Shown here: positions 18,201 to 34,821 of the stretch, piece by piece
How positions within the stretch are numbered: position 1 is the first letter of the stretch
Layout of the letters: each line of letters starts with the position of its first letter
Assembly: GCF_004341515.1 (NCBI RefSeq)
Contig: NZ_SLZF01000005.1
Coordinates: forward strand, 62,001 to 126,000
DNA: 64,000 nt
DNA from: Allobosea sp. BK604
GTDB taxonomy: Bacteria; Pseudomonadota; Alphaproteobacteria; Rhizobiales; Beijerinckiaceae
Direction: 5' to 3'
Notes under the pieces: generated by a model
Seen by the model: the letters and a program-made list of their open reading frames with translations, nothing else
Databases searched by the model: none
Told to the model about the DNA's origin: nothing
Program-made: the position numbers and the translations under genes

Positions 18201-21200
18201 GGCGGCCTGACCAAGACGGGCGCCGGCACGATCGTGCTCGCCGGCAGCAACACCTATGCCGGCGGCACCACGATCAATGCCGGTACGCTGCAGGTCGCGT
18301 CCAACGCCAATCTCGGCGACGCAGCCGGCGGCCTGACCTTCAATGGCGGCACGCTCGCGACCACGGCGGATTTCGCCATGTTCCGGTCGGTCACGCTGGC
18401 CGGCACCGGCAGCGTCGATGTCGCGGCCGGCACCCAGTTCGAGCTCGGCGGGGCTGTGGCGGGCATCGGCGGCCTGACCAAGCGCGGCGCCGGCACGCTG
18501 GTACTTTCCGGCGTCAACACCTCTTCCGGCGGCACCACGGTGTCGGCCGGCGTGCTGCAGGCCGGCAGCGCTGACGCGCTCGGCTCGGGCGCGCTGGTGC
18601 TGGACGGCGGCACGTTCAGGGCCGGCACCAGCTTCATCAACAGTTTCGCCAATGCGATCAAGGTCAACGCCAGCGGCGGCGCGGTCGATGTCAACGGCCA
18701 GGTGATGACGCTCTCGGGCGGCATCAGCGACGGCAACGGCGCCGGCGGGGCGCTCGCTTTCGTCAATAGCGATAGCCATATCGGTGCAGTCGAGCTCGGA
18801 GGCGCCAACAGCTATAGCGGGCCGACCTCGATCGGTGCGGGCGTGAAGCTGACCGCGCTGACCGACGCCGCCTTCTCGCCGAACTCGGACGTGACGCTCG
18901 CGGCAACCGGCGCGCTGATGGTCAATGGCCACAGCACGACCGTGCGCTCGCTCGCGGGCTCGGGCCTCGTCGTGAACGGCCACGACACGCAGCTCGGCAC
19001 GCTCACCGTCGCGCTGCCCTCGGGCGCCGCCACCTTCGCCGGCACTCTCAGCGACGGCGAGCCGGGCGACGCGGCGCTGACGCTGGTCAAGGCCGGCGCC
19101 GGCACGCAGATCCTGAGCGGCCGGAACAGCTATACCGGCGGCACGACGATCAGCGGCGGCACCTTGCAGCTTGGCGACGGCGGCACCTCCGGCTCGATCC
19201 TGGGCGACGTCGCCAATAACGGCACGCTCGCCTTCAACCGCTCGGGCGCCATCGTCTTCTCCGGCGCGATCACGGGCAGCGGCGCGCTGCGCCAGGACGG
19301 AACCGGGACGGTGGTCCTGACCGGGACGAACAGCTATGCCGGCGGCACCACGATCGCGGCCGGCACTTTGCAGATCGGCAATCGCGGCACCACGGGCTCG
19401 ATCACCGGCGACGTGGTGAATAACGGCACGCTCGCCTTCAAGCGCGCGGATAATGTCAGCTTCTCCGGCGCGATCTCGGGCAGCGGCGCGGTCGAGCAAC
19501 TCGGCCCCGGCACCGTCACGCTGACCGGCACCAACACCTATACCGGCGGCACGACGATCACGGCCAGCTTGTTCTCGCTTGCCGACGATGCCGCCAATAG
19601 CGGCACGCTTGCCTTCAACGGCTCGGAAGCGCTGAGCTTCACCAGCTCGAACACCTATACCAGCGGCACCACGGTCTTGGGCAGCGGCACGCTCACCCAT
19701 ACGGGGATCCCGGCCGGCACCTTGCAGATCGGCGATGGCGGGACGACCGGCTCGATCCTGGGCGATGTCGCCAATGATGGCACGCTCGCCTTCAACCGCT
19801 CGGATGCGGTCAGTTTCGGCGGTGTGATCTCGGGCCGCGGCCAGGTCGCGCAGCTCGGTGCGGGCACGCTCACGCTCACAGGTGCGAATACCTATAGCGG
19901 CGGCACGCTGATCTCGGCCGGCACGCTGGTCGGCTCGGCCACGAGCTTCGGCAGTGGCACGATCCTGAACAAGGCCGCGCTGGTGATCGACCAGCCCGGC
20001 AACGCGGTCCTCGCCAATGCGATCGACGGCACCGGCTCCTTCACCAAGCGTGGCGCCGGCAGCCTCAACCTGACCGGGATCAGCGGGCTCACCGGTCCGA
20101 CCACGGTCGCGGCCGGGCGGCTCGCGGTCAACGGCTCGCTCGCCCACTCCACCGTCACGGTCCAGGACGGCGCCATCCTCGGCGGCAACGGCACGCTGGG
20201 CGGGGCCATCATCCAGGCCGGCGGCACGATCGCTCCCGGCAACTCGATCGGCACGCTCACTATCAACGGCGACCTCGTGCTGGCGCCGGGCTCGATCTAT
20301 GATGTCGAGATCGCCGGCAATGGCAGCGCCGACCGGATCATCGTCTCCGGTTCGGCGACGGTGACCGGCAGCGAGGTGACGTTCACCGCACTCGATCCGC
20401 AGACGAGTTACCAGCGGGGCCAGCGCTACACGCTGATCAGCGCGACAGGTGGCGTCAATGGCGCCTTCGCCCAGGTCACCACCACATCCGCCTTCCTGGA
20501 TGTCGGGCTCGACCCGAAGACCGGCGAGGTCGATCTCACCATCAACGTCAAGAACGATCCTGGTGCTCCGACCGGTCCCGGCGCGGCGCCGGCCGTGTTC
20601 CAGATTGTGGCGGCGACGCCGAACCAATACGCCACGGCGGTCGGGCTCAACAGCCTGCCGCAGGTCGGCGGGACGCTGGCGCTCTATAACAGCCTGCTGA
20701 TGCTCGATGCGGCCACGGCGCGGAGCGCCTTCGACCTGCTCTCCGGCGAGATCCATGCCTCGGCCAGGACGGCGCTGGTCGAGGAGAGCTCGACCCTGCG
20801 CAACACGATGAACGACCGGCTGCGCTCGGCCTTCGGCTCTGTCGGCGCGGCGCCAATGGCGACCATGAACTATGGCTTCACCGCCGATCTTGCGCCCGCC
20901 GTGAAGGGGCCGCTGCCCCGGCTCGCCACCGAACGCTTCGCCGTCTGGGGCCAGGGCTACGGCTCATGGGGAAGGACCGATGGTGACCGCAACGCACAGA
21001 AGCTGACGCGCTCGACCGGCGGCTTCCTCATCGGCGCCGATGTCGCCGTGTTCGACACGATGCGGGTCGGCCTGCTCGCCGGCTACAGCCGCTCGGAGTT
21101 CGACGCCAAGGGAAGGCTCTCTTCGGGCGAGAGCGACAATTACCATATCGGCCTCTACGGCGGCGGACAGTGGGGCGCGCTCGGGCTCCGAGCCGGTGCG

Positions 21201-21755
21201 AGCTACACCTGGCATGATGTCGAGACCAGCCGCACGGTCGCCTTCGCCGGCTTCGGCAACAGCCTGAAGAGCGACTACAATGCCGGCACGGCCCAGGTCT
21301 TCGGCGAGCTCGGCTACCGCTTCGATGTCGGGCAGGTCGCGCTCGAGCCCTTCGCCGGCCTCGCTTACGTCAACCTCCACACCGACGGCTTCAACGAGAC
21401 CGGCGGCATCGCCGGTCTCTCGGGCCGTAGCGACGACACCAGCCTCGGCTATTCGACGCTGGGCCTGCGCGCCTCGACCTCCTTCGCGCTCTCGGGCATG
21501 GACCTGACCCTGCGCGGCGGCCTCGCCTGGCGCCATGCCTTCGGCGATGTCGACCCGCAGGCGACGCTCGCCTTCGCCGGCGCGAACCCGTTCACGGTCT
21601 CGGGCCTGCCGATCGCCAGGAACGCGGCGCTGATCGAGGCCGGGCTGGATGTCGCGATCAGCAAGAGCGCGACGCTCGGTGTGTCCTATACCGGGCAGCT
21701 CGCCCAGGACGCGCAGGACCATGCGTTCAAGGCGAATTTAGCCGTCAGGTTCTGA
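15240..21755 (+). CDS. Giant autotransporter with PATR passenger repeats
   Basis: A 2171-residue type V secreted protein. An extended signal peptide (about 52 residues, basic start, then VSVLALLCGFSAAGTYDAQA) precedes a Gly/Ser/Thr-rich beta-helical passenger. The passenger contains many passenger-associated transport repeats of the form GGLTKxGxGTxxLxGxNTYxGGTTI. A helical linker (about 1820-1865) leads to the outer-membrane beta-barrel (about 1895-2171) ending in Phe. No protease triad is visible, so adhesion or biofilm formation is the likelier role. The ribosome site before ATG 15240 is weak. It appears monocistronic. Confidence 0.93.
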   Translation: MRNGDVKASGAGKREDRTVRRRLSYRSHFGRSVSVLALLCGFSAAGTYDAQAACFAAGGTITCNGAANPLAPSYANGGNNLTVNINAGAGVGVLLGVGGTAMTFSGNNVSLNNAGTIDPMLLGQGSILSSGLVIGNANASTVTVNNSGVLRGTSGLLGANLPGLTGMALALQNGTGGVSTVTNTGTIAVSPLAGLSVATGDMPAVAIYGGGQVNFTNSSTGIINGRVAFQAPGTPGVGNSFINAGTITGSVSLGAGTTNTFTARTGSSVTAGLGTSGNTLGVTGLSLSFAAAGVVDGGAGGNNTLQLNQAVGGPASGALSLANYINFNTLDVQSGDWTLSGISTASSVTLGGGSVTIDNAGAFGSSTIQASGTGIGSSVAGLDLTNAIVIGSGGLTVQGAQDFTLSGVLSGTGGLTKTGIGTVTLAGANTYTGSTTIDAGTLALAAGGSIAGTGALNLSGVGAVLDISASGANQTIGALSGVAGSAVSLGVNALTIDSAANATFAGTIGGTGGLVKQGSGTQVLSGANTYTGGTTIDAGTLALGAGGSLAAAGSVNVAAGATLDISGSGTNQTIGALIGGNGSSVALGVHTLTFGDATNQSFGGSIGGTGSLTKAGSGTQTLTGANTYTGGTTVSGGALALGAGGSLAATGAVTLSSGAFDISASGANQTIGALSGAAGTAVTLGANTLTFGDATNQSFDGVISGTGGLVKQGAGSQVLTGAQAYGGSTTINGGLLRVEGSLASAAVTVAAGGTLGGSGSIAGAVTVADGGILAPGSSPGTLTVGSLVLNNQSRLGYELGTPGVVGGNLNDLVVVNGALTLDGVLDITPQAGFGAGSYRLFNYAGALTDGGLLFGIVPAGYEFSVDTTHAGEINLLASVATLQFWNGARTTADGSVHGGSGTWDAASTNWTGSSGNVASAWSNLTAVFAGPAGGSVTLAGNQQVAGLQFATDGYVLNGPGALQVAGATELRIDPGLTATINAVIEGTGGLTKTGAGTIVLAGSNTYAGGTTINAGTLQVASNANLGDAAGGLTFNGGTLATTADFAMFRSVTLAGTGSVDVAAGTQFELGGAVAGIGGLTKRGAGTLVLSGVNTSSGGTTVSAGVLQAGSADALGSGALVLDGGTFRAGTSFINSFANAIKVNASGGAVDVNGQVMTLSGGISDGNGAGGALAFVNSDSHIGAVELGGANSYSGPTSIGAGVKLTALTDAAFSPNSDVTLAATGALMVNGHSTTVRSLAGSGLVVNGHDTQLGTLTVALPSGAATFAGTLSDGEPGDAALTLVKAGAGTQILSGRNSYTGGTTISGGTLQLGDGGTSGSILGDVANNGTLAFNRSGAIVFSGAITGSGALRQDGTGTVVLTGTNSYAGGTTIAAGTLQIGNRGTTGSITGDVVNNGTLAFKRADNVSFSGAISGSGAVEQLGPGTVTLTGTNTYTGGTTITASLFSLADDAANSGTLAFNGSEALSFTSSNTYTSGTTVLGSGTLTHTGIPAGTLQIGDGGTTGSILGDVANDGTLAFNRSDAVSFGGVISGRGQVAQLGAGTLTLTGANTYSGGTLISAGTLVGSATSFGSGTILNKAALVIDQPGNAVLANAIDGTGSFTKRGAGSLNLTGISGLTGPTTVAAGRLAVNGSLAHSTVTVQDGAILGGNGTLGGAIIQAGGTIAPGNSIGTLTINGDLVLAPGSIYDVEIAGNGSADRIIVSGSATVTGSEVTFTALDPQTSYQRGQRYTLISATGGVNGAFAQVTTTSAFLDVGLDPKTGEVDLTINVKNDPGAPTGPGAAPAVFQIVAATPNQYATAVGLNSLPQVGGTLALYNSLLMLDAATARSAFDLLSGEIHASARTALVEESSTLRNTMNDRLRSAFGSVGAAPMATMNYGFTADLAPAVKGPLPRLATERFAVWGQGYGSWGRTDGDRNAQKLTRSTGGFLIGADVAVFDTMRVGLLAGYSRSEFDAKGRLSSGESDNYHIGLYGGGQWGALGLRAGASYTWHDVETSRTVAFAGFGNSLKSDYNAGTAQVFGELGYRFDVGQVALEPFAGLAYVNLHTDGFNETGGIAGLSGRSDDTSLGYSTLGLRASTSFALSGMDLTLRGGLAWRHAFGDVDPQATLAFAGANPFTVSGLPIARNAALIEAGLDVAISKSATLGVSYTGQLAQDAQDHAFKANLAVRF
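16524..17405 (+). repeat. Three tandem ~98-codon repeats inside the autotransporter
   Basis: Repeats begin at 16524, 16821 and 17115 (periods 297, then 294 bases), with a decayed fourth start at 17406. Each codes for NTYTGGTTIDAGTLALGAGG, followed by DISxSGxNQTIGAL and a short spacer (residues 429-722). High DNA similarity suggests recent duplication and possible copy-number variation. Confidence 0.8.
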
Positions 21756-21794: not shown

Positions 21795-21842
21795 GCAAGC
21801 CAGTCTTGACGCCGCCCGCGCCGGGCCGTGATACAGCGGCGC

Positions 21843-22439
21843 ATGGCCGAGCGCTTTACCCTCATCGAGCCCATCACCGTGCGGCAGGAGATCAGGAAGA
21901 GCCGCTTCATCGGAACGGCCGGCCCGGTCGCCGACGAGGCCGGCGCCCGGGATTTCATCGCGACCTGGTCCGATCCGGCGGCCAATCACAATTGCTGGGC
22001 CTGGCGTCTCGGGCAGGGCTATCGCTTCAACGACGACGGGGAACCGAGCGGCACTGCCGGCAAGCCGATCCTCGCTGCGATCGATGGGCAGGCTCTCGAT
22101 GGCGTCGCCATTCTCGTGACCCGCTGGTTCGGCGGCGTTCTGCTCGGCAGCGGCGGGCTGATGCGGGCCTATGGCGGCACGGCCGCCCTTGGCCTGCGCG
22201 AGGGCAAGAAGGTCGCGCTGGTCGAAACCGCCACGGCGACGATCACCTGCCCGTTCGGCGATCTGGCGCGGGTCCAGGCGCGTCTCGAAGCGCTGCCCGG
22301 CGTGCAGTTGCGCGATCAGGCCTTCACCAGCACCGGCGCCGTGCTCTCGATCTCGGTTCCAAAGGAGGAAACCGATCTGGTGACCCGGTTGGCGACGGAT
22401 CTCAGCAGCGGCCGCGCGTTCGTGCGATGGGACGAATGA
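21843..22439 (+). CDS. YigZ/IMPACT family protein (UPF0029)
   Basis: A 198-residue cytoplasmic protein of the YigZ/IMPACT family, which has an N-terminal UPF0029 domain and a small ferredoxin-like C-terminal domain. Diagnostic motifs are KSRFIGTAGPV, then NHNCWAWRLG, DDGEPSGTAGKPIL and VTRWFGGVLLGSGGLMRAYG. The eukaryotic member regulates translation through GCN1; the bacterial role is unclear. ATG 21843 is preferred over an in-frame GTG at 21828. It appears to be a single gene between hairpins. Confidence 0.9.
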   Translation: MAERFTLIEPITVRQEIRKSRFIGTAGPVADEAGARDFIATWSDPAANHNCWAWRLGQGYRFNDDGEPSGTAGKPILAAIDGQALDGVAILVTRWFGGVLLGSGGLMRAYGGTAALGLREGKKVALVETATATITCPFGDLARVQARLEALPGVQLRDQAFTSTGAVLSISVPKEETDLVTRLATDLSSGRAFVRWDE

Positions 22440-22441
22440 TG

Positions 22442-22499
22442 GCGCCGACACCGGCCCAAGCCTTCAGCGGTCGATAGCTGCCGGCCAGCTTGTCGGCGC
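22442..22499 (+). terminator. Inverted repeat after the YigZ gene
   Basis: Perfect 9-bp arms GCGCCGACA (22442-22450) and TGTCGGCGC (22491-22499), with inner CCGGCC / GGCCGG words that extend the stem. It starts 3 bases past the stop. A possible terminator or mRNA-end structure. Confidence 0.45.
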
Positions 22500-22680
22500 A
22501 GGATGCTTGCTTCCAGGCCCAGGTCGAACATGGCGCAAGTCGACCGCGATCGAGCAGATCATCGAAGGCCGAGACTCAGCCGGGCATAGCTTCGCGTTAT
22601 CAAGCCATGCAGCATTTCGATTTGACCCTCGGCCTCCATCCGCAGCCAATATCCTCGTAGAATTCGAGGAGTTGAAAGCG

Positions 22681-24723
22681 GTGCTGAGAATTGGCGTCGA
22701 CGTCGGCGGGACCTTTACCGACTTTGCGGCATGGCGCGACGATCCGGCGAGCCTGACCACCTATAAGGTCTCATCGACCCCGCCGAACTTCATCGACGGC
22801 TTCAAGGCCGGCTTCGAGGAGATCGTCACGCGTCTCGTTCCGCGTCCGGGCGAGACGGTCGTCGTCATGCACGGCACCACCGTCAGCACCAATACGGTGA
22901 TCGAGCGCAACGGCTCGGTGCTGGCGCTCCTGGTCACGCGCGGCTTCCGCGACATCCTCGATCTGCAGCGCTTCCGCCTGAACGACCCGATCCGCATCGA
23001 TGCGGGCCGGACCGAGCCGCTGGTGCCGCGTCATCTCGTCTTCGAGGTCGACGAGCGGCTGGAGCCGGACGGCTCCGTGCACGCCCCGATCGCGATCGAG
23101 CAGGTCAGGCAGGCCGTGCTGGCGGCGAAGGCCGAGGGCGCGACCAGCATCGCCATCGCCTTCCTTCACAGCTATGCCAATCCGGACCACGAACGCGCCG
23201 CGGCCGCCGCAGTGGCAGAGGTGGCGCCGGAATTCGACGTCAGCATCTCGAGCGAAATCCTGCCGCGCATCGGCGAATACGAGCGCTCGATCGCCTGCGT
23301 GCTCAACGCCTATGTCCGCAAGCGGCTCGGCACCTATGTCGGCCAGGTCGAGGCCTATCTCGCCGAGCGGCTGGCCGGGACGCGGCTGTTCATCACCCGC
23401 TCCAATGGCGGGGCGCTCGCGGCGCAGGAGGCCCGCAGCTTCCCGATCCACACGCTGCTCTCGGGCCCTGCCTCGGGTGTGACGGCGGCGCGCTTCTTCG
23501 CCGCGGCCGAGCCCGAGCGGCGCTTCCTGACCATGGATATGGGCGGCACCAGCACCGACATGTCGCTGATCCTCGACGGCAGGCCGACCGTGACCAACGA
23601 GGCCAAGGTCGGCGATTTCCCGCTGACCATGACCGTCACCGGCATCGAGGCGGTCGGCGCCGGCGGCGGCTCGATCGCCTGGCTCGACGGCACGGTGCTG
23701 CGCGTCGGCCCGCGCAGCGCCGGGGCCTGGCCGGGCCCGGCCTGTTTCGGGCGCGGCGGCACGCAGCCGACCGTGACCGACGCCTATCTGCTCTGCGGCT
23801 ATATCGACCCCGACAATTTCCTCGGCGGCCGGATGAAACTCGACATCGTGGCGGCGCGCCACGCTTTCGAACCGCTGGCGGCGAAGCTCGGCATCCCGGT
23901 CGAGGACGCTGCCGAGGCCTGCATCACGGTCGCGAGCTCGAACATGGTGGCGAAGGCCCTGCCCTATTTCGCCCGCCACGGTGTCGACCAGGAGGAGCTG
24001 ACGCTCGTGCTGTTCGGCGGGGCGGGCTCGCTGCACGGTCCGCTGCTGGCGCATGAGCTCGGGATCAACCGCCTGCTGGTGCCGCGCACGCCTTCGGTCT
24101 TCTGCGCCTTCGGCGGACTGGTTTCCGAGCTCGTGCAGGACATGGTCGCCACCGTCTACGGTAGCGATTTCGACGGTCCGGCCCTGGCGCGGCGCTTCGG
24201 CGAGCTGGAACAGGGCGCGCAAACCTGGCTCGCGGCACAGGCCGGCAAGAGCGACCTCGTCGCCACCCGCACGGAGCATTGGGCCGAGATGCGCTATCTC
24301 GGCCAGTTCTTCTCGCTCAACGTGCTGCTGCCGGCCGAGGCGGTGGCGAAGGGCGACCTGACCGCGATCCACGAGGCCTATCACGCCGAGCACGAGCGGC
24401 TCTACAGCCACGCCGACCGCGAGGCGCAGATCGAGATCCTGGAGCTGCGCGTACGCATCGCCGGCGCCCTGCCGATGCCGGCGATGGATGCGATCGCGCT
24501 GGCCTCGCAGGAGCCCGGCCAGTCGCAGACGGCGCGCTCGCTGCGCTTCGACGGGACGCTCTATGAAGGCGCCCCCGTGCATGACCGCGACACGCTCGGC
24601 GTCGGCACGCGGGTCATAGGCCCCGCGATCATCGAGCAGAGCGACACGACGATCTTCGTGATCCCCGGCTTCGTCGCCGAGACGCAGGCCTCCGGCGACC
24701 TCCTGATGACGCGGGCGAACTGA
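22681..24723 (+). CDS. Hydantoinase/oxoprolinase family protein, subunit A (HyuA-like)
   Basis: A 680-residue ATP-binding subunit of the hydantoinase A / 5-oxoprolinase / acetone carboxylase superfamily, which hydrolyses a lactam or hydantoin ring with ATP. The N-terminus LRIGVDVGGTFTDF is the actin-like phosphate-binding motif; HGTTVSTNTVIER and TMDMGGTSTDMSLI follow. GTG 22681 is chosen because homology begins there and GAGGAG lies about 10 bases upstream; the frame is open earlier without homology. It is followed 2 bases later by the B subunit and then by a flavin dehydrogenase in the same operon. Substrate unknown. Confidence 0.9.
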   Translation: MLRIGVDVGGTFTDFAAWRDDPASLTTYKVSSTPPNFIDGFKAGFEEIVTRLVPRPGETVVVMHGTTVSTNTVIERNGSVLALLVTRGFRDILDLQRFRLNDPIRIDAGRTEPLVPRHLVFEVDERLEPDGSVHAPIAIEQVRQAVLAAKAEGATSIAIAFLHSYANPDHERAAAAAVAEVAPEFDVSISSEILPRIGEYERSIACVLNAYVRKRLGTYVGQVEAYLAERLAGTRLFITRSNGGALAAQEARSFPIHTLLSGPASGVTAARFFAAAEPERRFLTMDMGGTSTDMSLILDGRPTVTNEAKVGDFPLTMTVTGIEAVGAGGGSIAWLDGTVLRVGPRSAGAWPGPACFGRGGTQPTVTDAYLLCGYIDPDNFLGGRMKLDIVAARHAFEPLAAKLGIPVEDAAEACITVASSNMVAKALPYFARHGVDQEELTLVLFGGAGSLHGPLLAHELGINRLLVPRTPSVFCAFGGLVSELVQDMVATVYGSDFDGPALARRFGELEQGAQTWLAAQAGKSDLVATRTEHWAEMRYLGQFFSLNVLLPAEAVAKGDLTAIHEAYHAEHERLYSHADREAQIEILELRVRIAGALPMPAMDAIALASQEPGQSQTARSLRFDGTLYEGAPVHDRDTLGVGTRVIGPAIIEQSDTTIFVIPGFVAETQASGDLLMTRAN

Positions 24724-24725
24724 CG

Positions 24726-26732
24726 ATGGATCCGATCCGCACTGCGATGATGAACAACCGCTTCACGGCGATCGTCGAGGAAGCCTCCGCCACGCTCTAC
24801 CGCACCGCCTTCACCACCTATGTGAAGCTGGCGCAGGACTTCCAGTGCGCGCTGGCGACGCCGGAGGGCGAGCTGTTCTCGCATCCCGAACAGTCCGGCG
24901 TGAACATCTTCATGGGCCTGCCGCTGCACTCGACGCTCGATTTCATCGGCCGCGAGACGATGCAGCCTGGCGACGTCTACATCACCAACGACCCGTTCAC
25001 GACGAACGGCATGGTCACGCATCTGATGGACGTGACGATGCTGCGGCCGGTCTTCCACGAGGGCAAGCTGATCGCCGTCGGCTGGACCTTCATCCACGCC
25101 TCCGACATCGGCGGCGGCGTGCCGGGCAGCATCTCGCCCTCCTTCACCGAGGTCTTCCAGGAAGGGGTGCGCGTCAGGCCGATGCGGCTCTGCCGCAACG
25201 ACGAGATCGTGCCCGAGGTGCGCGACATCTTCCTCTACAACAGCCGCATCCCCGACGACATGTGGGGCGACTTCAAGGCCATGCTCTCGGCCTTGAAGGG
25301 CATGGAGCGGCGCCTCGTCGAGCTGTGCAAGCGCTACGGCGCCGAGCAGGTCTCGAGCGGCATGCGCGACGTGCTCGACTTCGCCGAGGCGAAGGCGCGC
25401 ACGGTCATCGCCGCGATCCCGGACGGGACCTACTCGTTCTCCGACTATGTCGAGCTGCTGAAGCCCGGCCACTACGCCCATATCATGACCACGCTGCGGA
25501 TCGAGGGCGACGGCATCGAGGTCGATTTCACCGGCTCCGACCCGCAGGTGCCGGCGGCGTATAACTACACGACGGGCGACCGCACCCATCCCTATCTCGT
25601 GCAGGCGCTGCTCAACTTCATCCTGACGCAGCAGCCCGACACGCCCCGCAATGGCGGCCTGCTCCGGCCGATCAAGACGATCGCGCCGCGCGGCACCATC
25701 GTGAATGCGGAGCTGCCGGCCGCGGGCGGCGCACGCGTCGCCTCGAGCGCCCGCGTGTTCGACTCGATCATGGCCTGCCTCAACCAGGCGGTGCCCGGCG
25801 GCGTGCTGGCGAGCGGCCCCGGCCAGATCGGCATCATGGCGCTGAGTGCGCCGCATCCGCGCACGGGCAAGACGACGGTCGGCGTCGTCAACCCGCTGAT
25901 CGGCGGCAGCGGCGGGCGCGCCACCTGCGACGGCGTCAACGCGGTTGACCCGCGCTTCGGGCAGGTCAAGAGCGTGCCGACCGAACTGATCGAGGCCGAC
26001 ACCGTGCTGCGCGTGCGCCGCTTCGCGCTGGTGCCGGACAGCCAGTCGCCCGGCGAGCGCCAGGGCGGCGCGGCGCTCATGATCGAGCTGGAGAATACCG
26101 GCTTCGAGGCACTGACCACGGTGCGCGGCATGAACCGCTTCCATTTCCGCCCCTGGGGCTTCAAAGGCGGCGCCCATGGCCGGCTCGGCCAGGCGATCCT
26201 CAATCCCGGCCGCGCCGACGAGCGCAATCTCGGCAAGATCGACGTGCTCAAGCTTGCCGCCGGCGACGTGCTGCGCATCACGACCTCGGCCGGAGGCGGC
26301 TTCGGGGATCCGCTGGACCGCGCGCTCGACGCGATCGCGCGCGATTTGCGCTCCGGTCTCGTCACCGCAGCCCATGCCGAGCGCGTCTACGGGCTCGTCT
26401 TCGGCGCGGACGGCACGATCGATGCCGACGCCACGGCGGCGCGCCGGGCGGTGCTGCGGAAGGCGGCGCCGGAGCTTTTCGACTACGGCCCCGAGAAGGA
26501 AGCCTACAACAGGATCTGGCCGGCGCAGATGCGCTCGAGCCTCGCCATCAAGGTGCTCGCCCAGAAGCCGGCGCTGCGCCAGAACCTGCTCGTGCTGGTC
26601 GAGCAGGCACTGACCCGGCGGGGCGCCACCGTCGACGAGACGAGCCTCGACGCTGCGCTGGCCGAAGCGCTCGACGAGCTGAGCGGGCGGGCAAGGCGGC
26701 GCGAACCTGCCCCGCGCATGGCGGCGCAGTGA
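24726..26732 (+). CDS. Hydantoinase/oxoprolinase family protein, subunit B (HyuB-like)
   Basis: A 668-residue partner of the preceding subunit. It begins MDPIRTAMMNNRFTAIVEEA, with GDVYITNDPFTTNGMVTHLMD and GGSGGRATCDGVNAVDPRFG further on, all typical of HyuB. It is roughly 100 residues longer than the usual 520-590. The extra C-terminal part (from about 560) is helical and ends in a basic Arg-rich tail; its role is not evident. The stop overlaps or abuts the flavoprotein start. Confidence 0.9.
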   Translation: MDPIRTAMMNNRFTAIVEEASATLYRTAFTTYVKLAQDFQCALATPEGELFSHPEQSGVNIFMGLPLHSTLDFIGRETMQPGDVYITNDPFTTNGMVTHLMDVTMLRPVFHEGKLIAVGWTFIHASDIGGGVPGSISPSFTEVFQEGVRVRPMRLCRNDEIVPEVRDIFLYNSRIPDDMWGDFKAMLSALKGMERRLVELCKRYGAEQVSSGMRDVLDFAEAKARTVIAAIPDGTYSFSDYVELLKPGHYAHIMTTLRIEGDGIEVDFTGSDPQVPAAYNYTTGDRTHPYLVQALLNFILTQQPDTPRNGGLLRPIKTIAPRGTIVNAELPAAGGARVASSARVFDSIMACLNQAVPGGVLASGPGQIGIMALSAPHPRTGKTTVGVVNPLIGGSGGRATCDGVNAVDPRFGQVKSVPTELIEADTVLRVRRFALVPDSQSPGERQGGAALMIELENTGFEALTTVRGMNRFHFRPWGFKGGAHGRLGQAILNPGRADERNLGKIDVLKLAAGDVLRITTSAGGGFGDPLDRALDAIARDLRSGLVTAAHAERVYGLVFGADGTIDADATAARRAVLRKAAPELFDYGPEKEAYNRIWPAQMRSSLAIKVLAQKPALRQNLLVLVEQALTRRGATVDETSLDAALAEALDELSGRARRREPAPRMAAQ

Positions 26733-26734
26733 CC

Positions 26735-27856
26735 ATGACGGCAGCCGCGGACATCACGGTGATCGGCGGCGGGCTCGTCGGAGCCGCGATCGCCTTCGGC
26801 CTCGCGCAGCAGCCCGGCATGCGGGTCGCGGTGCTCGACGAGGGCGATATCGCGCGCCGGGCCTCGCGGGCGAATTTCGCGCTGGTCTGGGTCTCGTCCA
26901 AGGGCGTCGGCATGCCCGAATACGCGACGTGGTCGATGGACTCCGCCGATGGCTGGGCCGGGCTCGCCGCATCGGTGCGCGAGATATCCGGCATCGACGT
27001 CGCCTATGAGCGGCCCGGCGGCTTCCTGATGTGCTTGTCGGATGCCGAGATGGATGCGCGCATCCGCACCATGAAGGTGATGCAGGCGCAGACCGGCGCG
27101 CCGCAATATGCCTACGAAATCCTCGACCATGCAGGCGTCAGGAAGCGCCTGCCCGCGATCGGCCCCGACGTGGTCGGGGCGATCTATTGCGATCTCGACG
27201 GCCATGTGAACTCGCTGCGCCTGTTCCGCGCGCTGCATGTCGCCATGGCGCGGCTCGGCGTCTCCTACCGGCCCGAGCACCCGGTCGACACCATCGTGCC
27301 CGGGCAGGACGGCTTTCGCATTCGCGGTCCCTGGGGCGAGTTCACGACTGGACGCGTCGTCCTGGCGGCCGGGCTCGACAATGCGCGGCTCGCCGCCATG
27401 GTCGGCCTGTCGGCGCCGGTCGTGCCCAGCAAGGGGCAGATCATCATCACCGAGAAGGCGGCGCCCTTCCTGAACTACCCGGTCCAGACCGTGCGCCAGA
27501 CCGACGAGGGCGGCGTCATGGTCGGCGACAGCCAGGAGGACCTGGGTTTCGACACGCAGGTGACCTACCCGGTGATCTCGGTGATGGCGCAGCGTGCGGT
27601 GCGCATGTTCCCGCTGCTCGCCGGGCTCAACGTGGTGCGCACCTGGTCGGCCTCGCGCGTGATGAGCCCGGACGGCTTCCCGATCTACGAGCAGTCGCGC
27701 GAATGGCCCGGCGCCTTCGTCGCCACCTGCCATTCCGGCGTCACGCTGGCGGCGGCGCATGCGCAGATCCTGGCCCCCGCGATCCGCGCTGGACGCCTGC
27801 CCGACGACCTGGCCTGTTTCTCGGCGAGGAGGCTGAATGTTCCGAAGGCTGCCTGA
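26735..27856 (+). CDS. FAD-dependent amino acid/amine dehydrogenase, catalytic subunit (HcnC/DadA-like)
   Basis: A 373-residue flavoprotein of the D-amino-acid oxidase fold with dinucleotide-binding motif VIGGGLVGAAIAFGLA at the N-terminus and a C-terminal WSASRVMSPDGFPIYE segment. It is the beta-like subunit in heterotrimers such as hydrogen cyanide synthase HcnABC, opine oxidase or D-hydroxyproline dehydrogenase. ATG 26735 follows the hyuB stop; GTG 26729 is an alternative overlapping it. It overlaps the following [2Fe-2S] gene by 20 bases. It likely oxidises a secondary amine or imino acid. Confidence 0.87.
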   Translation: MTAAADITVIGGGLVGAAIAFGLAQQPGMRVAVLDEGDIARRASRANFALVWVSSKGVGMPEYATWSMDSADGWAGLAASVREISGIDVAYERPGGFLMCLSDAEMDARIRTMKVMQAQTGAPQYAYEILDHAGVRKRLPAIGPDVVGAIYCDLDGHVNSLRLFRALHVAMARLGVSYRPEHPVDTIVPGQDGFRIRGPWGEFTTGRVVLAAGLDNARLAAMVGLSAPVVPSKGQIIITEKAAPFLNYPVQTVRQTDEGGVMVGDSQEDLGFDTQVTYPVISVMAQRAVRMFPLLAGLNVVRTWSASRVMSPDGFPIYEQSREWPGAFVATCHSGVTLAAAHAQILAPAIRAGRLPDDLACFSARRLNVPKAA

Positions 27857-28157
27857 GAGCGAAGAGGTGACGGTCCGCTTCTCCATCGACGGCCGATCCG
27901 TCACGGCGCGGGCCGGCGAAACGGTCGCGGCCGCCCTTCTCGCGACGGGCGTCGTCTCCTGCCGGACGACGCCCGTCGGCGGGCAGAAGCGCGCGCCCTA
28001 TTGCATGATGGGCGTCTGCTTCGAATGCCTCGTCACGATCGACGGCATCGGCAACCGCCAGGCCTGCCTCGTCCCGGTGAGCGAGGGCATGGCGGTCCGC
28101 AGCCAGCACGGCGCCCGCGCCATCGCCGACGAGCCTCTCGCGGAGGGCGCGCGATGA
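27837..28157 (+). CDS. [2Fe-2S]-binding small subunit of the amine dehydrogenase (HcnA-like)
   Basis: A 106-residue ferredoxin-like subunit with a conserved YCMMGVCFECLVTIDG motif and ACLVPV downstream, as in the gamma subunits of HcnABC-type dehydrogenases. It passes electrons between the two flavin subunits. Both ends overlap its neighbours (20 and 4 bases), indicating strict co-translation. Confidence 0.88.
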   Translation: MFRRLPESEEVTVRFSIDGRSVTARAGETVAAALLATGVVSCRTTPVGGQKRAPYCMMGVCFECLVTIDGIGNRQACLVPVSEGMAVRSQHGARAIADEPLAEGAR

Positions 28158-29602
28158 AGCAGCCGGGCACTGTCGGCGCGCTGGACGAGCGCTACGATCT
28201 TGCGGTCATCGGCGCCGGGCCGGCCGGGCTGTCCGCGGCGGCGGAGGCGGCAGAGGCCGGTCTTTCCGTGTTGCTGCTCGACGAGAACGGCGCCCCGGGC
28301 GGCCAGATCTATCGCGGTATCTCGGGCATGCCGGCGAAGCGCCGCGCCATCCTGGGCGCGGATTTCGTGCGAGGCGACGCCGTCGTCGAGCGCTTCGAGC
28401 GCAGCGCGGCGAGCTATGCCCGCCACGCCACGGTCTGGAGCCTGGCGCCCGACGGGCCGAAGGGCTTCGAGATCGGCGTCTCGCTCGCGGGGGCCGCCCG
28501 CCACATCCACGCGCGCGAGGTCGTGGCCGCGACGGGCGCGCATGAGCGGCCCTTCCCGATCCCGGGCTGGACCTTGCCGGGCGTCATGACGGCCGGTGCC
28601 GCCCAGATCGCGCTCAAGGCGAGCGCGCTCGTGCCGGCCGGGCGCGTCATCGTCGCCGGCTGCGGGCCGCTGCTCTTCCTCGTCACCGCCCAGCTCCTTG
28701 CCGCCGGCGCGGACATCGTCGCGGTGCTCGACACCGCCGAGCGCGGCAACTGGCGCCGGGCGCTGCCGCATCTGCCGGACTTCCTGCGTTCGCCCTATCT
28801 CGCCAAGGGCCTGCGCCTGATGCTGAAGGCCCGGCGGGCCCATTTCGCCGCCGGCGTGACCACGCTGAGGGCGGAAGCCGATGCGGACGGCAATCTCTCC
28901 CGCATCGTCTATGGCCAGGACGGCCGCGAGACGACGCTCTCCTGCGAGACGCTGCTGCTGCATCAGGGCGTCGTTCCCAACATCAACCTCGCCAATGCGG
29001 TGGGCTGCGAGCAGGACTGGGACGAGGCCGGGCTCTGCTTCGTTCCGCGCACCGATGCCTGGATGCAGACCAGCATTCCCGGCCTCAGCATCCCCGGCGA
29101 CGGCGCGGGCATCCGCGGCGCGGAGGCCGCGACGCTTGGCGGCACGCTTGCTGCGCTCGGCGCACTCTGCCGGCTCGGCCGGCTGACCGCTGAGGAGCGC
29201 GACCGGCGCGCGACGCCGATCAGGGCGGAATTCGAGCGCTACTCGGCCGGCCGCGCCTTTCTGGACGCGCTCTATCGTCCGCCCAAGGCCTTCCGGGTGC
29301 CGGAGGTGGCCGAGACCATCGTCTGCCGCTGCGAGGAGGTCACGGCTGGCGAGATCCGCGAGGCCGTCGCCGGCGGCGTCACCGGCCCGAACCAGCTCAA
29401 GATCTTCCTGCGCTGCGGCATGGGTCCCTGCCAAGGCCGGCAATGCAGCCTCACGGTCACCGAGTTGATCGCCGATGCGCGCGGCAGCGATGCCGCGACG
29501 GTCGGCTCCTATCACCAGCGCCCGCCCTTCAAGCCGGTCACGCTCGGCGAGCTCGCCGCGCTGCCGACGACCCCGGCGGCGGTCAAGGCGGTGGTGCGAT
29601 GA
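28154..29602 (+). CDS. FAD/NAD(P)-binding subunit with C-terminal BFD-like [2Fe-2S] domain (HcnB-like)
   Basis: A 482-residue alpha-type subunit. N-terminal FAD motif VIGAGPAGLSAAAEAAEAG, a pyridine-disulfide-reductase fold in the middle, and a C-terminal domain with Cys pattern VCRCEEVTAGEIREAV...CGMGPCQGRQC that binds iron-sulfur. ATG 28154 overlaps the previous stop as ATGA. With the two preceding genes it completes a heterotrimeric dehydrogenase that normally feeds electrons to the respiratory chain. Confidence 0.88.
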   Translation: MKQPGTVGALDERYDLAVIGAGPAGLSAAAEAAEAGLSVLLLDENGAPGGQIYRGISGMPAKRRAILGADFVRGDAVVERFERSAASYARHATVWSLAPDGPKGFEIGVSLAGAARHIHAREVVAATGAHERPFPIPGWTLPGVMTAGAAQIALKASALVPAGRVIVAGCGPLLFLVTAQLLAAGADIVAVLDTAERGNWRRALPHLPDFLRSPYLAKGLRLMLKARRAHFAAGVTTLRAEADADGNLSRIVYGQDGRETTLSCETLLLHQGVVPNINLANAVGCEQDWDEAGLCFVPRTDAWMQTSIPGLSIPGDGAGIRGAEAATLGGTLAALGALCRLGRLTAEERDRRATPIRAEFERYSAGRAFLDALYRPPKAFRVPEVAETIVCRCEEVTAGEIREAVAGGVTGPNQLKIFLRCGMGPCQGRQCSLTVTELIADARGSDAATVGSYHQRPPFKPVTLGELAALPTTPAAVKAVVR

Positions 29603-29621
29603 CGCACGCGCCCGCCCTGTC

Positions 29622-29721
29622 CAGAGCATTTCCGTGTTTCCTCGAAGCGCGAAAATTCGCTGGTTCGCTGTTTCAACGCATTTTCTTCACGCAAACCGGC
29701 ATCCACTTCGCTCGAAGGCGC
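29622..29721. repeat. Intergenic mosaic repeat, modules C and B
   Basis: A degraded module C (AGAGCATTTCCG, from 29622) followed by module B at 29675-29721 (CGCATTTTCTTCACGCAAACC then CACTTCGCTCGA). Inverted copies or relatives are at 35355, 45187 and 52583. It fills the convergent gap between the dehydrogenase operon and the LysR gene. Confidence 0.65.
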
Positions 29722-29727
29722 TCCAGC

Positions 29728-30630
29728 TCAGCCGAGCTTGCGCGCCAGCGCGGCGAATTCGCGCCTGAGATGCGCGATGAACTCGTCGCGGACGGCGGAT
29801 GGCGGCCGGGCGCTCGGGGTGAGCAGCGTCAGCTCGAACTGCACGGGATGGTCAAAGGGCCTGGCGACGAGATCGGCATTGGTCGGCGCCGCGGCGGTCA
29901 GCGGGTCGACGAGCGTCACGCCGGCGCCGACGCGCACGAATTCGCAAGCCGCCATGGAAAGCTGGGTGCTGGTGCGCAGGATGCGCGCGACGCCCTCCAT
30001 CGCGAAGATATCGTCGATGAGATGGCGCATCCGGTCCTCGTCGCCGAGCGAGATGAAGGGCTCGCCGGCGAGATCGGCAGGGAGGATCACATCCTTCCGG
30101 GCGAGGCGATGGCCGGGCGGCAGGACGCAGGCCCAGCGCCCACGGAACAGGTTCTCGCTGCTCACGGCCGGGTCGTCGACCGGCAGCACCGAGACGGCGG
30201 CATCGATCTGCTGGGAGATGGCGAGATCGATCAGCTTCGGCGTGTTCTGGACCTGCAGCGACACCGAGACGTCCTGCCTTTCGGCCTGGAACTGGCTGAT
30301 CATCGCCGGCAGGACGCTGAGGCCCGCCGTCGGCACGCCGGCGACGACGAGATGGCCGAAGCCCGCTCGCTTGAGATTGCTCGCGAGATGCTCGAGCCGG
30401 TTGAACTGGCCGAACACGCTCTTCGTCGCCTCGTAGAAGACGCGGGCCTCCGCCGTCGGCACCAGGCGTTGATGCTCGCGCCGGAACAGCACGAAGCCGA
30501 GCCGCGCTTCGAGCATGGTGATCAGCTTGCTCACGGCCGGTTGGGAGAGATTCATGCTCGCCGCTGCCCGTGAAATCCCTCCCGCTTCCATGACGCATCT
30601 GAAGGCGTCGAGCTGGCGCGTATTCAGCAC
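29728..30630 (-). CDS. LysR-family transcriptional regulator (divergent from polyamine-type importer)
   Basis: A 300-residue LysR-type regulator with N-terminal helix-turn-helix (LDAFRCVMEAGGISRAAASM, then QPAVSKLITMLEARLGFVLF) and an effector-binding domain. It sits between the hydantoinase-dehydrogenase operon (convergent) and a divergent ABC importer, so it probably controls the importer and perhaps both. Effector unknown. Confidence 0.9.
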   Translation of the reverse strand: MLNTRQLDAFRCVMEAGGISRAAASMNLSQPAVSKLITMLEARLGFVLFRREHQRLVPTAEARVFYEATKSVFGQFNRLEHLASNLKRAGFGHLVVAGVPTAGLSVLPAMISQFQAERQDVSVSLQVQNTPKLIDLAISQQIDAAVSVLPVDDPAVSSENLFRGRWACVLPPGHRLARKDVILPADLAGEPFISLGDEDRMRHLIDDIFAMEGVARILRTSTQLSMAACEFVRVGAGVTLVDPLTAAAPTNADLVARPFDHPVQFELTLLTPSARPPSAVRDEFIAHLRREFAALARKLG

Positions 30631-30725
30631 GTGTGAAACCCCGGCATTCGTTCCCCGTTCTTCGGTGCCCCGTTTTCGGCCAGCCTACAGGCAGCTCCCG
30701 TGCTTGGGGAGCCGGCCGGCTGCCC

Positions 30726-30744
30726 GGCATGCAGCCTTCATGCC
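30726..30744. promoter_or_regulatory. Inverted repeat in the LysR/importer intergenic region
   Basis: GGCATG (30726-30731) and CATGCC (30739-30744) flank seven bases, a spacing compatible with a LysR-type site. A second inverted repeat, GCTCCC/GGGAGC, lies just to its left. Functional role is inferred from position. Confidence 0.35.
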
Positions 30745-30858
30745 GTCAAACCGGGCGCGCCCTGGCGCGATGATGACCTTCCCCGCGATTGCCGGCGCTC
30801 ACCTGCCGACCCTACCCTCACCCCGGCGGTACCGCCGCGCCATGAAAGGAGCTGCCAG

Positions 30859-31953
30859 ATGACGTCTGCGATCCATCGGTCCAAGCCTGCATCTCGTCTG
30901 TGGAAGCCGACCCGGCGCTCACTGCTCGCCATGGGCGGCGCGGCCATCTGCGCGCCCTATCTCGGCTCCACCTCGCTGCGCGCCCAGGGCAAGGAGCTCG
31001 TCGTGCCGATGAGCGGCGGCTCGTTCATGACGATCTGGGGCAGCGAGGTCGCCGATACCTTCAAGAAGAAGACCGGCATCAGCGTGAAGATGGTGCCGGG
31101 CAACATGAAGACCCACGCCATGTCCTCGCTGGCGGCGAAGGGCAACCCGCCCTTCGATCTTGCCTTCGGCAATGGCGACGATTTCATCCAGCTTCTCGAC
31201 TCCGGCAAGCTGCTGCCGCTCTCGCCGGACAAGGTGCCGAATATCGACGACATCCACGTCAAGTTCAAAGAGCAATGGCAGGGCCACGGCTCGATGTTCG
31301 ACTATTTCAGCATCGGGCTCGCCTACGCGACCGACCAGGTGAAGAACCCGCCGGCCTCGTGGAAGGAGTTCGTCGAGCGCACGGTGAAGGGCGATTTCGG
31401 CGCCAACGTCTTCTTCAACGGGCTGAATGCCGGCGTGCGCGGGCCGGAGGTTCTGGTCAACCTTGCCCGCGCCCTCTCCGGCAGCGAGCAGAACGTCGAC
31501 GCCGCCTTCGACGCGCTGAAGCGCATGAAGCCGAACGTCTTCAAGTTCTTCGGCTCGATCAACGACCCGATCCTGATGCTCCTAAACGGCGAGGGCATCA
31601 TCGGGCCGAGCTGGGACGGGCGCACCTTCGTCGCGCAGGACGAATCGAACGGCAAGGTCGCCTTCGTGAAGCCGAGCGACGGCCTTGCCTCGAACGGCCC
31701 GGCGATCGGCGTGATCAAGGGCGGCAACGAGGACGCCGCCTATCAGCTCGTGAACCACGCGCTCAGTGTCGAGGTGCAGAAGCCCTTCTGCGAGAAGATG
31801 TTCTACGGCGCGGTCAACACCAAGGTCAGCTATAGCGGCTCGCTGGCCCAGCGCATCCCGAAGCCCGACGAGGTCAACGTCCCGAGCGAGCGCTTCATGG
31901 CCACCAACATGGGCGCCTGGATCAAGCGCTGGAACCAGGAGATCGCAAGCTGA
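30859..31953 (+). CDS. Extracellular solute-binding protein of a polyamine-type ABC transporter
   Basis: A 364-residue periplasmic binding protein (spermidine/putrescine or iron-type class). The N-terminus holds a twin-arginine-like motif TRRSLLAMGG followed by a hydrophobic stretch and SLRAQ cleavage, suggesting Tat export. Mature motifs: MSGGSFMTIWGSEVADTFKK and FGSINDPILMLLNGEG. ATG 30859 has AAAGGAG eight bases upstream. Its stop overlaps the permease start. Specificity unknown; operon position beside the hydantoinase cluster suggests a nitrogen compound. Confidence 0.87.
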   Translation: MTSAIHRSKPASRLWKPTRRSLLAMGGAAICAPYLGSTSLRAQGKELVVPMSGGSFMTIWGSEVADTFKKKTGISVKMVPGNMKTHAMSSLAAKGNPPFDLAFGNGDDFIQLLDSGKLLPLSPDKVPNIDDIHVKFKEQWQGHGSMFDYFSIGLAYATDQVKNPPASWKEFVERTVKGDFGANVFFNGLNAGVRGPEVLVNLARALSGSEQNVDAAFDALKRMKPNVFKFFGSINDPILMLLNGEGIIGPSWDGRTFVAQDESNGKVAFVKPSDGLASNGPAIGVIKGGNEDAAYQLVNHALSVEVQKPFCEKMFYGAVNTKVSYSGSLAQRIPKPDEVNVPSERFMATNMGAWIKRWNQEIAS

Positions 31954-32834
31954 GCGCGCTCGCCCAACCAGCCGCGGCGGCGCTGCCGGCGCGCGAGGCC
32001 GCACCACGCAAGGATCGCTCGCCGGTCTTCGCCGCGGTCGGCCCCGCCTGCCTCTATGTCGCCGTCCTGCTCGTCCTGCCCTTCGCCTATCTCGTCTATC
32101 TCAGCCTGCATTCGGGCGAGTCCGACGGGCTCACGCTCGCGAACTATGTCGAGATCTTCACCGGCCGGATCTATCTGGAAAGCCTGTGGGGCACGTTGCA
32201 GCTCGGCGTCAGCGTGACGCTGCTGACCTTGCTGCTCGGCTATCCCGTCGCCTATTACATCGCCCAGTCCGGCTCACGCTTCGCCATGTTCACCATGGCG
32301 GTGATCATCCTGCCGCTCTTCGTCAGCGTCGTGGTGCGCAGCTTCGGCTGGATGATCCTGTTCGGACGGCAGGGCAACGTGAACCGCCTGCTGATCTCGC
32401 TCGGCATCACCGACAAGCCGCTGCAGCTGCTCTACACCCCCGGCGCCGTCACGGTCGGCCTCGTGCATATCCTCGCGCCGCTGATGATCCTGCCGATCGC
32501 CTCGGTGCTGCGCGGGCAGGATCCCGCCCTGCGCGAGGCGGCGAGCAGCCTCGGCGCCTCGCGCGCCAAGGTGTTCTGGACCGTCACCCTGCCGCTCAGC
32601 CTGCCCGGCATCGCCGCCGGCTGCGTGCTGGTGCTGGCGCATGTGATCGCGGCCTTCGTGCTGCCGGCCCTGATCGGCTCCGACCGTGTCCGCCTGATGG
32701 CGACGATGATCTACCAGCAGGTCATGACCGCCAATAATCTGGCGCTCGGCGCGGCGCTTGCCGTGGTCATGGTCGTCGCGACCTTCGCCCTCCTGGCGCT
32801 TGCCGGCTTCGTCACGCGGAGGTCCCGTGACTGA
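31950..32834 (+). CDS. Polyamine-type ABC transporter permease 1, apparent CTG start
   Basis: A 294-residue PotB-like permease. The coding frame with its first membrane segment (VGPACLYVAVLLVLPFAYLV, about residues 31-50) contains no ATG, GTG or TTG until TTG 32196. That TTG would delete the first segment and the following periplasmic part. CTG 31950 overlaps the previous stop as CTGA and is preceded by AGGAGA with a 7-base spacer, an ideal ribosome site. I therefore place the start at CTG. The EAA loop LREAASSLGASRAKVFWTVT is intact. It is followed by a second permease overlapping it by 8 bases. Confidence 0.85.
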   Translation: MSALAQPAAAALPAREAAPRKDRSPVFAAVGPACLYVAVLLVLPFAYLVYLSLHSGESDGLTLANYVEIFTGRIYLESLWGTLQLGVSVTLLTLLLGYPVAYYIAQSGSRFAMFTMAVIILPLFVSVVVRSFGWMILFGRQGNVNRLLISLGITDKPLQLLYTPGAVTVGLVHILAPLMILPIASVLRGQDPALREAASSLGASRAKVFWTVTLPLSLPGIAAGCVLVLAHVIAAFVLPALIGSDRVRLMATMIYQQVMTANNLALGAALAVVMVVATFALLALAGFVTRRSRD

Positions 32835-33669
32835 CAGCGCAACCGCCTCGACCCCGACGATGCCGCGCCGCACGACCCGGCGCTTCGACCTCGCGCGCAC
32901 CGCCCTCTTCGCCTATGTCGTGCTCTTCCTGCTGTTCATCCTCGCGCCGCTCATCGTGGTGATCGGCTCCTCCTTCGAGCCGCGCGAGCTCCTGCGCTTC
33001 CCGCCGCAGGGCCTGTCGCTGCGCTGGTACCATCAGGCGCTGAACAGCGACCTCTTCGTCGGCGCGGCCTGGAACAGCCTCATCATCGCCGTGCTGGCGA
33101 CGCTGGGCGCGCTGCTGCTCGGCGTGCCTGCCGCCTACGGGCTGGCGCGCTTCGATTTCAGGGGCCGCGAGGCCGTCTCCGGCCTGCTGAACTCGCCGCT
33201 GCTCGTGCCGGAACTGGTCATGGGCCTGGCGCTGCTGCAGATCCTGGCCGGGCTGCACATCGCCTCCTCGCTCGTCACCCTGACTTTCGGCCACATCCTG
33301 ATCTGCCTGCCCTATGTCGTGCGCACCATCCATTCGGCCGTGCTCGGCGTCGACCGCTCGATCGAGGAGGCCGCCGCCAATCTCGGCGCCGCGCGCTGGC
33401 GGATCTATCTGACGATCCTGCTGCCGATCATCCGCCCGGCGCTCTACGCGGCGATCCTGTTCTCCTTCCTGATGAGCTTCGACAACGCGGTGCTCTCGCT
33501 CTTCCTCGTCTCGGCGCGGACCTCGACCCTGCCGATCTCGGTCTACAACTACGTCCAGTACAGCCTCGACCCGGCCATCGCCGCGGTCTCGACCCTCCTG
33601 ATGGCGGTTTCCGTCGTCGCCCTCTTCACGGCGAGCCGTCTGGTTCCCCTCGATCGGATCAAGCAATGA
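32827..33669 (+). CDS. Polyamine-type ABC transporter permease 2
   Basis: A 280-residue PotC-like inner-membrane permease. GTG 32827 is preferred (GGAGG about 5 bases upstream, overlapping the preceding stop). The first membrane segment is LFAYVVLFLLFILAPLIVVI, and the EAA loop reads IEEAAANLGAARWRIYLTIL. It overlaps the ATPase gene by 4 bases. Confidence 0.9.
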   Translation: MTDSATASTPTMPRRTTRRFDLARTALFAYVVLFLLFILAPLIVVIGSSFEPRELLRFPPQGLSLRWYHQALNSDLFVGAAWNSLIIAVLATLGALLLGVPAAYGLARFDFRGREAVSGLLNSPLLVPELVMGLALLQILAGLHIASSLVTLTFGHILICLPYVVRTIHSAVLGVDRSIEEAAANLGAARWRIYLTILLPIIRPALYAAILFSFLMSFDNAVLSLFLVSARTSTLPISVYNYVQYSLDPAIAAVSTLLMAVSVVALFTASRLVPLDRIKQ

Positions 33670-34781: not shown

Positions 34782-34821
34782 GACCTGCTCCAGCCCCTGT
34801 GCAGCCGATCGGGAGCACGAC

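Follow-up and report, generated by a model that had tools for sequence, protein, structure and literature searches.

A five-gene operon of Allobosea sp. BK604 joining hydantoinase/oxoprolinase-family genes to a putative opine dehydrogenase: a probable route for opine-like lactams

Passages of the papers cited here by PubMed Central (PMC) number state that the opines nopaline, succinamopine and leucinopine close to rings in acid, and that pyronopaline, the lactam of nopaline, is assimilated via the noc pathway (PMC4192606). Nopaline Ti plasmids carry hydantoinase/oxoprolinase genes, and the pTiEU6 paper, which located HyuA and HyuB genes in succinamopine and nopaline regions, suggested that their products "could open lactam rings" (PMC6733357); the same idea has been put forward for rideopine (PMC8554961), the published suggestions dating from 2019 and 2021. 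Type 1 opine dehydrogenase has been described as encoded by overlapping genes in the order B-C-A, with characteristic motifs in each subunit (PMC4575208). Here we describe a five-gene operon of Allobosea sp. BK604, in which a HyuAB pair is directly followed by a trimer that fits this description. The operon resides in a 64,000-nucleotide stretch of contig NZ_SLZF01000005.1 (G000:C5:62001-126000 in a 7.6-Mb genome), referred to below as the window. Among the open-licence PMC papers listed by word searches we found no description of an operon composed of HyuAB and an opine dehydrogenase, the only mention of HyuAB together with opines being the Ti-plasmid lactam suggestion; the literature passages from this source contained no experimental test of HyuAB on opine lactams, and the word matches in passages of PMC4809877 were unrelated to the topic.

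The five genes occupy positions 22681-29602 of the forward strand in the order described by an earlier note on this DNA, and all five frames are open (Table 1). HyuA and HyuB are separated by 2 bases, while the genes that follow overlap by 4, 20 and 4 bases. The G+C content of the third codon position is 0.90-0.93 in all five, and a GAGGAG sequence lies 9 bases upstream of the GTG start codon of HyuA. We consider that the cluster probably encodes the breakdown of an opine-like compound in which an end made of N-substituted glutamate, or of something similar, has been closed to a lactam. It is presumably chromosomal, the source being a contig of a draft genome. In the proposed pathway, the polyamine-type (Pot-type) ATP-binding cassette (ABC) importer encoded downstream would bring the compound into the cell, and HyuAB, judging from its family, clade and gene company, would open the N-substituted 5-oxoproline ring with the use of ATP. 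By analogy with characterised opine dehydrogenases, the OdhB-C-A trimer would oxidise the released secondary-amine acid, and the imine would hydrolyse to a keto acid, most likely 2-oxoglutarate, and an amine or amino acid. The LysR-type regulator may sense the compound.

Table 1. Features of the operon and its surroundings, in window coordinates (percentages refer to identity with the counterpart in G036, another genome of the genus)
Feature	Position	Strand	Basis
Putative promoter/regulator region of the operon	22585-22680	+	Similarity to G036 begins at about 22585
HyuA, putative ATP subunit of ATP-dependent lactam hydrolase, 680 amino acids, GTG start	22681-24723	+	PF05378/PF01968/PF19278 (Hydant_A_N, Hydantoinase_A, Hydant_A_C)
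HyuB, putative metal subunit of lactam hydrolase, 668 amino acids	24726-26732	+	Hydantoinase_B PF02538 1.6e-134
OdhB/NoxB/OoxB-like beta subunit, flavin adenine dinucleotide (FAD), DAO family, 375 amino acids	26729-27856	+	DAO PF01266 4.3e-55
OdhC/NoxC-like gamma subunit, [2Fe-2S], 106 amino acids	27837-28157	+	Fer2_4 PF13510 4.1e-29
OdhA/NoxA/OoxA-like alpha subunit, FAD and BFD-type [2Fe-2S], 482 amino acids	28154-29602	+	Pyr_redox_2 PF07992, Fer2_BFD PF04324, SO_alpha_A3 PF17806
LysR-type regulator	29728-30630	-	PF00126/PF03466; 86% in G036, at the same relative place
Periplasmic solute-binding protein, Pot-type ABC importer	30859-31953	+	PF13416 1.2e-29; 89% in G036
ABC permease, PotB-like, start codon uncertain	31950-32834	+	Open frame, PF00528; PotB model best but under cut-off; 86% in G036
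ABC permease, PotC-like, start codon uncertain	32818-33669	+	Open frame; 89% in G036
ABC ATPase, PotA-like	33666-34781	+	PF00005 3.4e-38; PotA models best, under cut-off; 82% in G036
Cyclophilin-type peptidyl-prolyl isomerase, unit membership unsure	34822-35355	+	PF00160; 79% in G036

The gene order, motifs and phylogeny of the trimer fit a flavin-containing opine dehydrogenase of the Nox/Oox type (OdhB-C-A). Its genes show the B-C-A order with overlaps described for the type 1 enzyme, GxGxxG is present in both the beta and alpha subunits and Arg-x-Trp in beta, and the gamma subunit contains Cys-x4-Cys-x2-Cys-x12-Cys (x11-12 in the published form). The [2Fe-2S] motif of the alpha subunit has been printed as Cys-x-Cys-x15-20-Cys-x4-Cys (PMC4575208). 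In the window protein, which also has a Fer2_BFD domain, Cys-x-Cys and Cys-x4-Cys are 32 residues apart; this distance is also 32 in both pTiS4 alpha subunits and 33 in K84 NoxA, so that the printed spacing is not kept there either. In a tree of 43 beta subunits, from which sequences matched over fewer than about 230 residues, but none because of stops, had been removed, the window protein and that of G036 belong to a 12-row set together with OoxB of an octopine Ti plasmid (support 98/96), K84 NoxB being placed farther off within the same 32-row half; the identity of the window protein to OoxB is 50% and to K84 NoxB 40%. The earlier note had named the three subunits after Hcn proteins. These names do belong to the same wider family, but the gene order, the motifs and the kinship with OoxB are better read as those of an opine dehydrogenase, and on these grounds, with a tree that holds no row for hydrogen cyanide (HCN) synthase, the HCN synthase reading was set aside.

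The two upstream proteins have the features expected of the HyuAB family, i.e. both domains, the pair of ATP-site aspartates and an Asp-His-Asp-His metal site. With the active-site residues of caprolactamase taken from passages of PMC8453981, Asp11 and Asp295 of the CapA ATP site align with Asp7 and Asp286 of HyuA, while the CapB metal ligands Asp41, His99, Asp102 and His124 align with Asp38, His99, Asp102 and His124 of HyuB and are invariant in the five aligned rows. At the position of CapB Thr335, beside a pocket residue, HyuB has Arg337, likewise invariant in this alignment and also found in N-methylhydantoinase; this arginine may fit a polar substrate and does not single out an opine. Although family and catalytic residues are shared with both CapAB and N-methylhydantoinase, the window proteins are far below the CapA and CapB cut-offs (476 and 245 bits with the NCBIfam models, against 1000). 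An identity as caprolactamase was therefore rejected, as was that of acetophenone carboxylase, whose model scored far under its cut-off.

The solved protein that HyuA matches best is N-methylhydantoinase (2.2e-110), caprolactamase also being among the nearest solved relatives, and this best match might speak for a route through an N-substituted hydantoin, as in the degradation of N-methylhydantoin. We regard such a route, the first branch of the earlier note, as highly improbable, since the opening of a hydantoin yields an N-carbamoyl amino acid, an unexpected substrate for a dehydrogenase of the DAO type, and no carbamoylase is present among the genes examined (21828-35355). The earlier proposal of ATP-driven opening of a lactam or hydantoin followed by oxidation of a secondary amine thus loses its hydantoin half but keeps its lactam logic; opines were already on its list of compounds to be tested.

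Phylogeny places the HyuA protein among those of opine regions. In a tree of 26 HyuA rows it belongs to an 11-row clade (support 100/100) that also includes the proteins of G036, pAtK84b, Brucella daejeonensis, A. vitis CG957, pRi2659, Paraburkholderia BR3459a, Alloyangia mangrovi, two further genomes (G015 and G133) and a metagenome-assembled genome (MAG, L062). Window HyuA accordingly groups with that of the noc region of pAtK84b and that of pRi2659, which we take to be of the cucumopine type. The genome of strain BK604 encodes 11 HyuA-family proteins; seven of the ten others were placed in the tree, all of them outside the clade, and the three with no fetched locus were left out (stops led to the exclusion of no row). 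When plasmids were searched with HyuA, 1012 records matched, and among the 30 listed, 29 are plasmids of Agrobacterium, Rhizobium or Neorhizobium with 55-56% identity; pAtK84b and CG957 were opened, and several of the other listed plasmids are presumably nopaline Ti plasmids.

We also compared the genes that accompany HyuA in 12 distinct relatives, namely the 11 clade rows (the window included) and G825, whose protein is 50% identical and is not in the tree; L062 and G763, which agree in length and in the place of the match and seem to be one record, were counted once, and matches covering less than 50% or 35% of the query, depending on the map, were dropped. The trimer or parts of it occur within 10 kb of HyuA in five cases: the window, G036, K84, CG957 and B. 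daejeonensis, where HyuA sits in a noc-like stretch. Three others have a protein of the Cucumopine_C family (PF18631) or its close relative, as identified by Pfam in BR3459a and Alloyangia and by 51% identity in pRi2659. Cucumopine is a product of histidine and 2-oxoglutarate, and the hut histidine-degradation genes that are also present at the BR3459a and pRi2659 loci fit this chemistry. The clade members had been drawn from different searches, and the fairest comparison is a single genome-contig scan: it revealed an opine-related partner at two of three clade loci (L060, L061), while around the other HyuA genes (at most 42% identity, many on short contigs) a trimer-like match was found at three of 77 loci (L073, L077, L120) and a Cucumopine_C match at none of the 77. 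The octopine case also agrees with a role in lactam opening: octopine forms no gamma-lactam, and in the octopine Ti plasmid NC_002377 no HyuA or HyuB match was found in bases 1-62000, a span that takes in the occ region (the other 132 kb lay outside the search).

A tentative extension of these observations, to which we give somewhat less than even odds, is that the HyuAB clade represents a dedicated opine gamma-lactamase, an activity of which we found no demonstration in print, paired in a modular fashion with either a flavin opine dehydrogenase (nopaline type and the window) or, in the cucumopine type, a Cucumopine_C protein that works in the reverse direction. The window would be its most compact form. 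HyuAB genes stand together with Cucumopine_C-type proteins at L061 8987-14046, L040 10001-16218 and L170 989-9939, the Alloyangia copy being on a genome contig, and these loci are candidates for the use of cucumopine lactam. The HyuB frame of BR3459a (L040 12051-14032) is in two pieces, with no gene listed there, and is possibly broken.

Of the described systems, the noc region of pAtK84b is similar to the window in its HyuA and HyuB (55 and 53% identical, with HyuA in the same clade) and in the presence of a NoxB-C-A trimer, LysR genes and an ABC importer within about 13 kb. It differs in being plasmid-borne, in the divergent orientation of HyuAB and nox, and in having an importer annotated NocPTQM, an arginase and an ornithine cyclodeaminase; beside the window oxidase, positions 29728-35355 encode instead a LysR regulator, the Pot-type ABC importer and a cyclophilin. 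The pRi2659 Cucumopine_C region shares with the window HyuA and HyuB (51 and 53% identical) and a Pot-type ABC importer, but has Cucumopine_C-like proteins and hut genes in place of the flavin trimer. The sac region of pTiEU6, as given in its published description, combines NoxACB-like genes, HyuAB, LysR and a potABCD-type transporter, the last with its own LysR gene, in a single region; unlike in the window, HyuAB stands beside an asparaginase and apart from the trimer, and there are two beta subunits (PMC6733357). The published description of OdhABC of Pseudomonas putida and Bradyrhizobium japonicum matches the window trimer in chromosomal B-C-A order, overlaps and motifs, but its passages name no hyu gene (PMC4575208). 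The opinion in the earlier note that no pathway with this gene set had been described therefore needs correction: such a pathway has been proposed (PMC6733357, PMC8554961), and HyuAB shares a region with Nox/Oox-type genes in nopaline and succinamopine plasmids and in pTiS4. The parts and their logic are thus known. What seems to be new is their union, as HyuAB and an opine dehydrogenase, in one overlapping operon outside Ti and Ri plasmids, as well as the finding of a single HyuAB clade in the company of two opine-related enzymes that have no kinship with each other.

The arrangement of the five genes is more than a chance assembly. In G036, the series of ten genes that starts with HyuA and ends with the ABC ATPase is kept in the order of the window, the five operon proteins being 90, 91, 81, 75 and 80% identical (in gene order), LysR 86% and the importer proteins 82-89%. 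The ratios of nonsynonymous to synonymous substitution rates (dN/dS, two-sequence Nei-Gojobori) are, in the same order, 0.15, 0.16, 0.31, 0.31 and 0.26, values that fit purifying selection on each of the genes. The order is rare. HyuA with at least 80% identity is present in two of the 67 genomes of the genus, own included, and the complete five-gene order was seen in G000 and G036 only. The earlier note held that a lack of conservation of the order in relatives would refute its idea; conservation is about halfway, the full order being found in one of 66 congeners searched and a split or divergent arrangement elsewhere. In G015, of the same genus, a HyuA relative (56%) is accompanied by an ABC transporter of the oligopeptide type, and the 19.5 kb fetched around it lack a trimer. 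Among 397 genomes drawn evenly from the order, the beta subunit was matched at E <=1e-60 in 74 and HyuA at <=1e-150 in four, HyuA of at least 50% identity occurring only in the own genome and G133; in 385 genomes of the class, HyuA was matched at <=1e-170 in three.

The beta subunit is more widespread, with a match at <=1e-40 in 33 of 61 genomes (own and relatives). The usual form in the genus has a beta subunit of 64-68% identity preceded directly by a PotC-like gene, and not by HyuB, as in 21 of 36 congeners. A second, distant beta-like subunit follows in six of seven such stretches (17 kb each; L043-L048, L058), which is the B1-C-A-B2 arrangement described for Bradyrhizobium japonicum by Watanabe et al. 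(PMC4575208), and none of the seven contains a HyuA or HyuB match. A second OdhB-C-A set is also present in the BK604 genome (L059, G000:C6:389753-390862), accompanied by a LysR gene of its own and by another beta-like subunit; the 18 kb fetched there contain no HyuA or HyuB match. The genus form, together with OoxB as the nearest named beta subunit, might indicate that the two enzymes of the window share an operon but not a substrate, the trimer being an ordinary dehydrogenase of the octopine type and HyuAB a lactamase or hydantoinase of a general kind. Such independence seems quite unlikely given that the frames overlap, that their order is kept in G036 and that the HyuA clade is repeatedly accompanied by opine-related enzymes.

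Several observations weigh against the assignment to an opine-like lactam. Four of the 12 HyuA relatives (G015, G133, G825 and L062, the last on a contig of 7.7 kb) have no opine-splitting partner in the stretch examined; in G133 the same contig encodes a trimer at a distance of about 40 kb, and in G825 a Pot-type importer lies near HyuA. Although 12 of the 397 genomes of the order (the own genome is not among them) contain Cucumopine_C genes, no HyuA or HyuB occurs around these genes in ten wider stretches (G107 and G357 were left out); the presence of a Cucumopine_C gene thus does not require that of HyuAB. The HyuA protein of pTiS4, a plasmid with one trimer accompanied by HyuAB and a second one behind a Pot-type importer, falls outside the clade. 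The nearest named relative of the beta subunit is OoxB, the opine of which derives from pyruvate and forms no gamma-lactam, in a tree without rows for HCN synthase, D-hydroxyproline dehydrogenase or L-proline dehydrogenase. The window genes examined include no arginase, ornithine cyclodeaminase or asparaginase that would name the released amino acid; because of this, of the different importer and of the kinship between beta and OoxB, a simple nopaline or succinamopine pathway is disfavoured. From the literature, passages on the rideopine-type plasmids pTi932 and pTi1078 report them to be without hydantoinase genes (PMC10410297), which makes ring opening dispensable there, and the conversion between nopaline and pyronopaline has been drawn as spontaneous (PMC4192606).

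The same two steps could also act on another lactam, either D- or L-5-oxoproline, opened to glutamate and then oxidised, or a lactam of the N-alkyl or proline type that comes from plant matter or soil and is not an opine. The nearest solved HyuA relatives, N-methylhydantoinase and caprolactamase, as well as the four relatives with no opine-splitting partner, are consistent with such a substrate, and dehydrogenases of D-hydroxyproline and L-proline are among the members of the trimer family (PMC4575208). We nonetheless find it unlikely, since HyuA groups with the noc and pRi2659 proteins and beta with OoxB; moreover, two further HyuA genes of the BK604 genome lie in frames (1249 and 1284 amino acids) that would be long enough for fused HyuA-HyuB oxoprolinases.

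If the HyuAB clade is indeed a dedicated opine gamma-lactamase, opine lactams or their close analogues would be available to bacteria away from crown galls. Ring opening has so far been drawn as spontaneous (for nopaline) or credited to HyuAB by suggestion only (PMC4192606, PMC6733357, PMC8554961). With HyuAB and an opine dehydrogenase joined in one operon, two purified enzymes are enough to test this step, and the operon would be a sign that opines are used in places other than crown galls.

The LysR protein encoded downstream of the operon is 35% identical to K84 NocR. Before HyuA, an ATAG-N7-TTAT sequence is found at 22586-22600, of which the half-sites are kept in G036 and most of the 7-base core is changed. 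The consensus used for the scan is one that we take to represent a LysR box; it gave 16 matches in the window (at most two mismatches) against 21.3 expected, which is not above chance, and was rejected as evidence; of interest is just the site before HyuA, for its conservation in G036. In the importer, the frame of the first permease (31950-32834) has no ATG, GTG or TTG near the expected start and seems to overlap the stop codon of the binding-protein gene. The cyclophilin gene of G036 (L042 1754-2284) faces the ABC genes, whereas that of the window comes after them; a 37% relative is encoded near a HyuA gene in a MAG (L137 6337-6831). Base composition gave no signal of foreign origin, as the G+C content is 0.66-0.72 over 22000-35999 (2-kb steps) and 0.64-0.71 in the flanks. 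The genes that flank the cluster differ between the two genomes: in the window they are a UPF0029 gene (YigZ-type) and a frame resembling an autotransporter, in G036 an amidohydrolase-like frame (by eye) and more ABC genes. The autotransporter-like frame, also recognised by eye, spans 15240-21755 (2171 amino acids), has many repeated passenger motifs and lies shortly before the operon.

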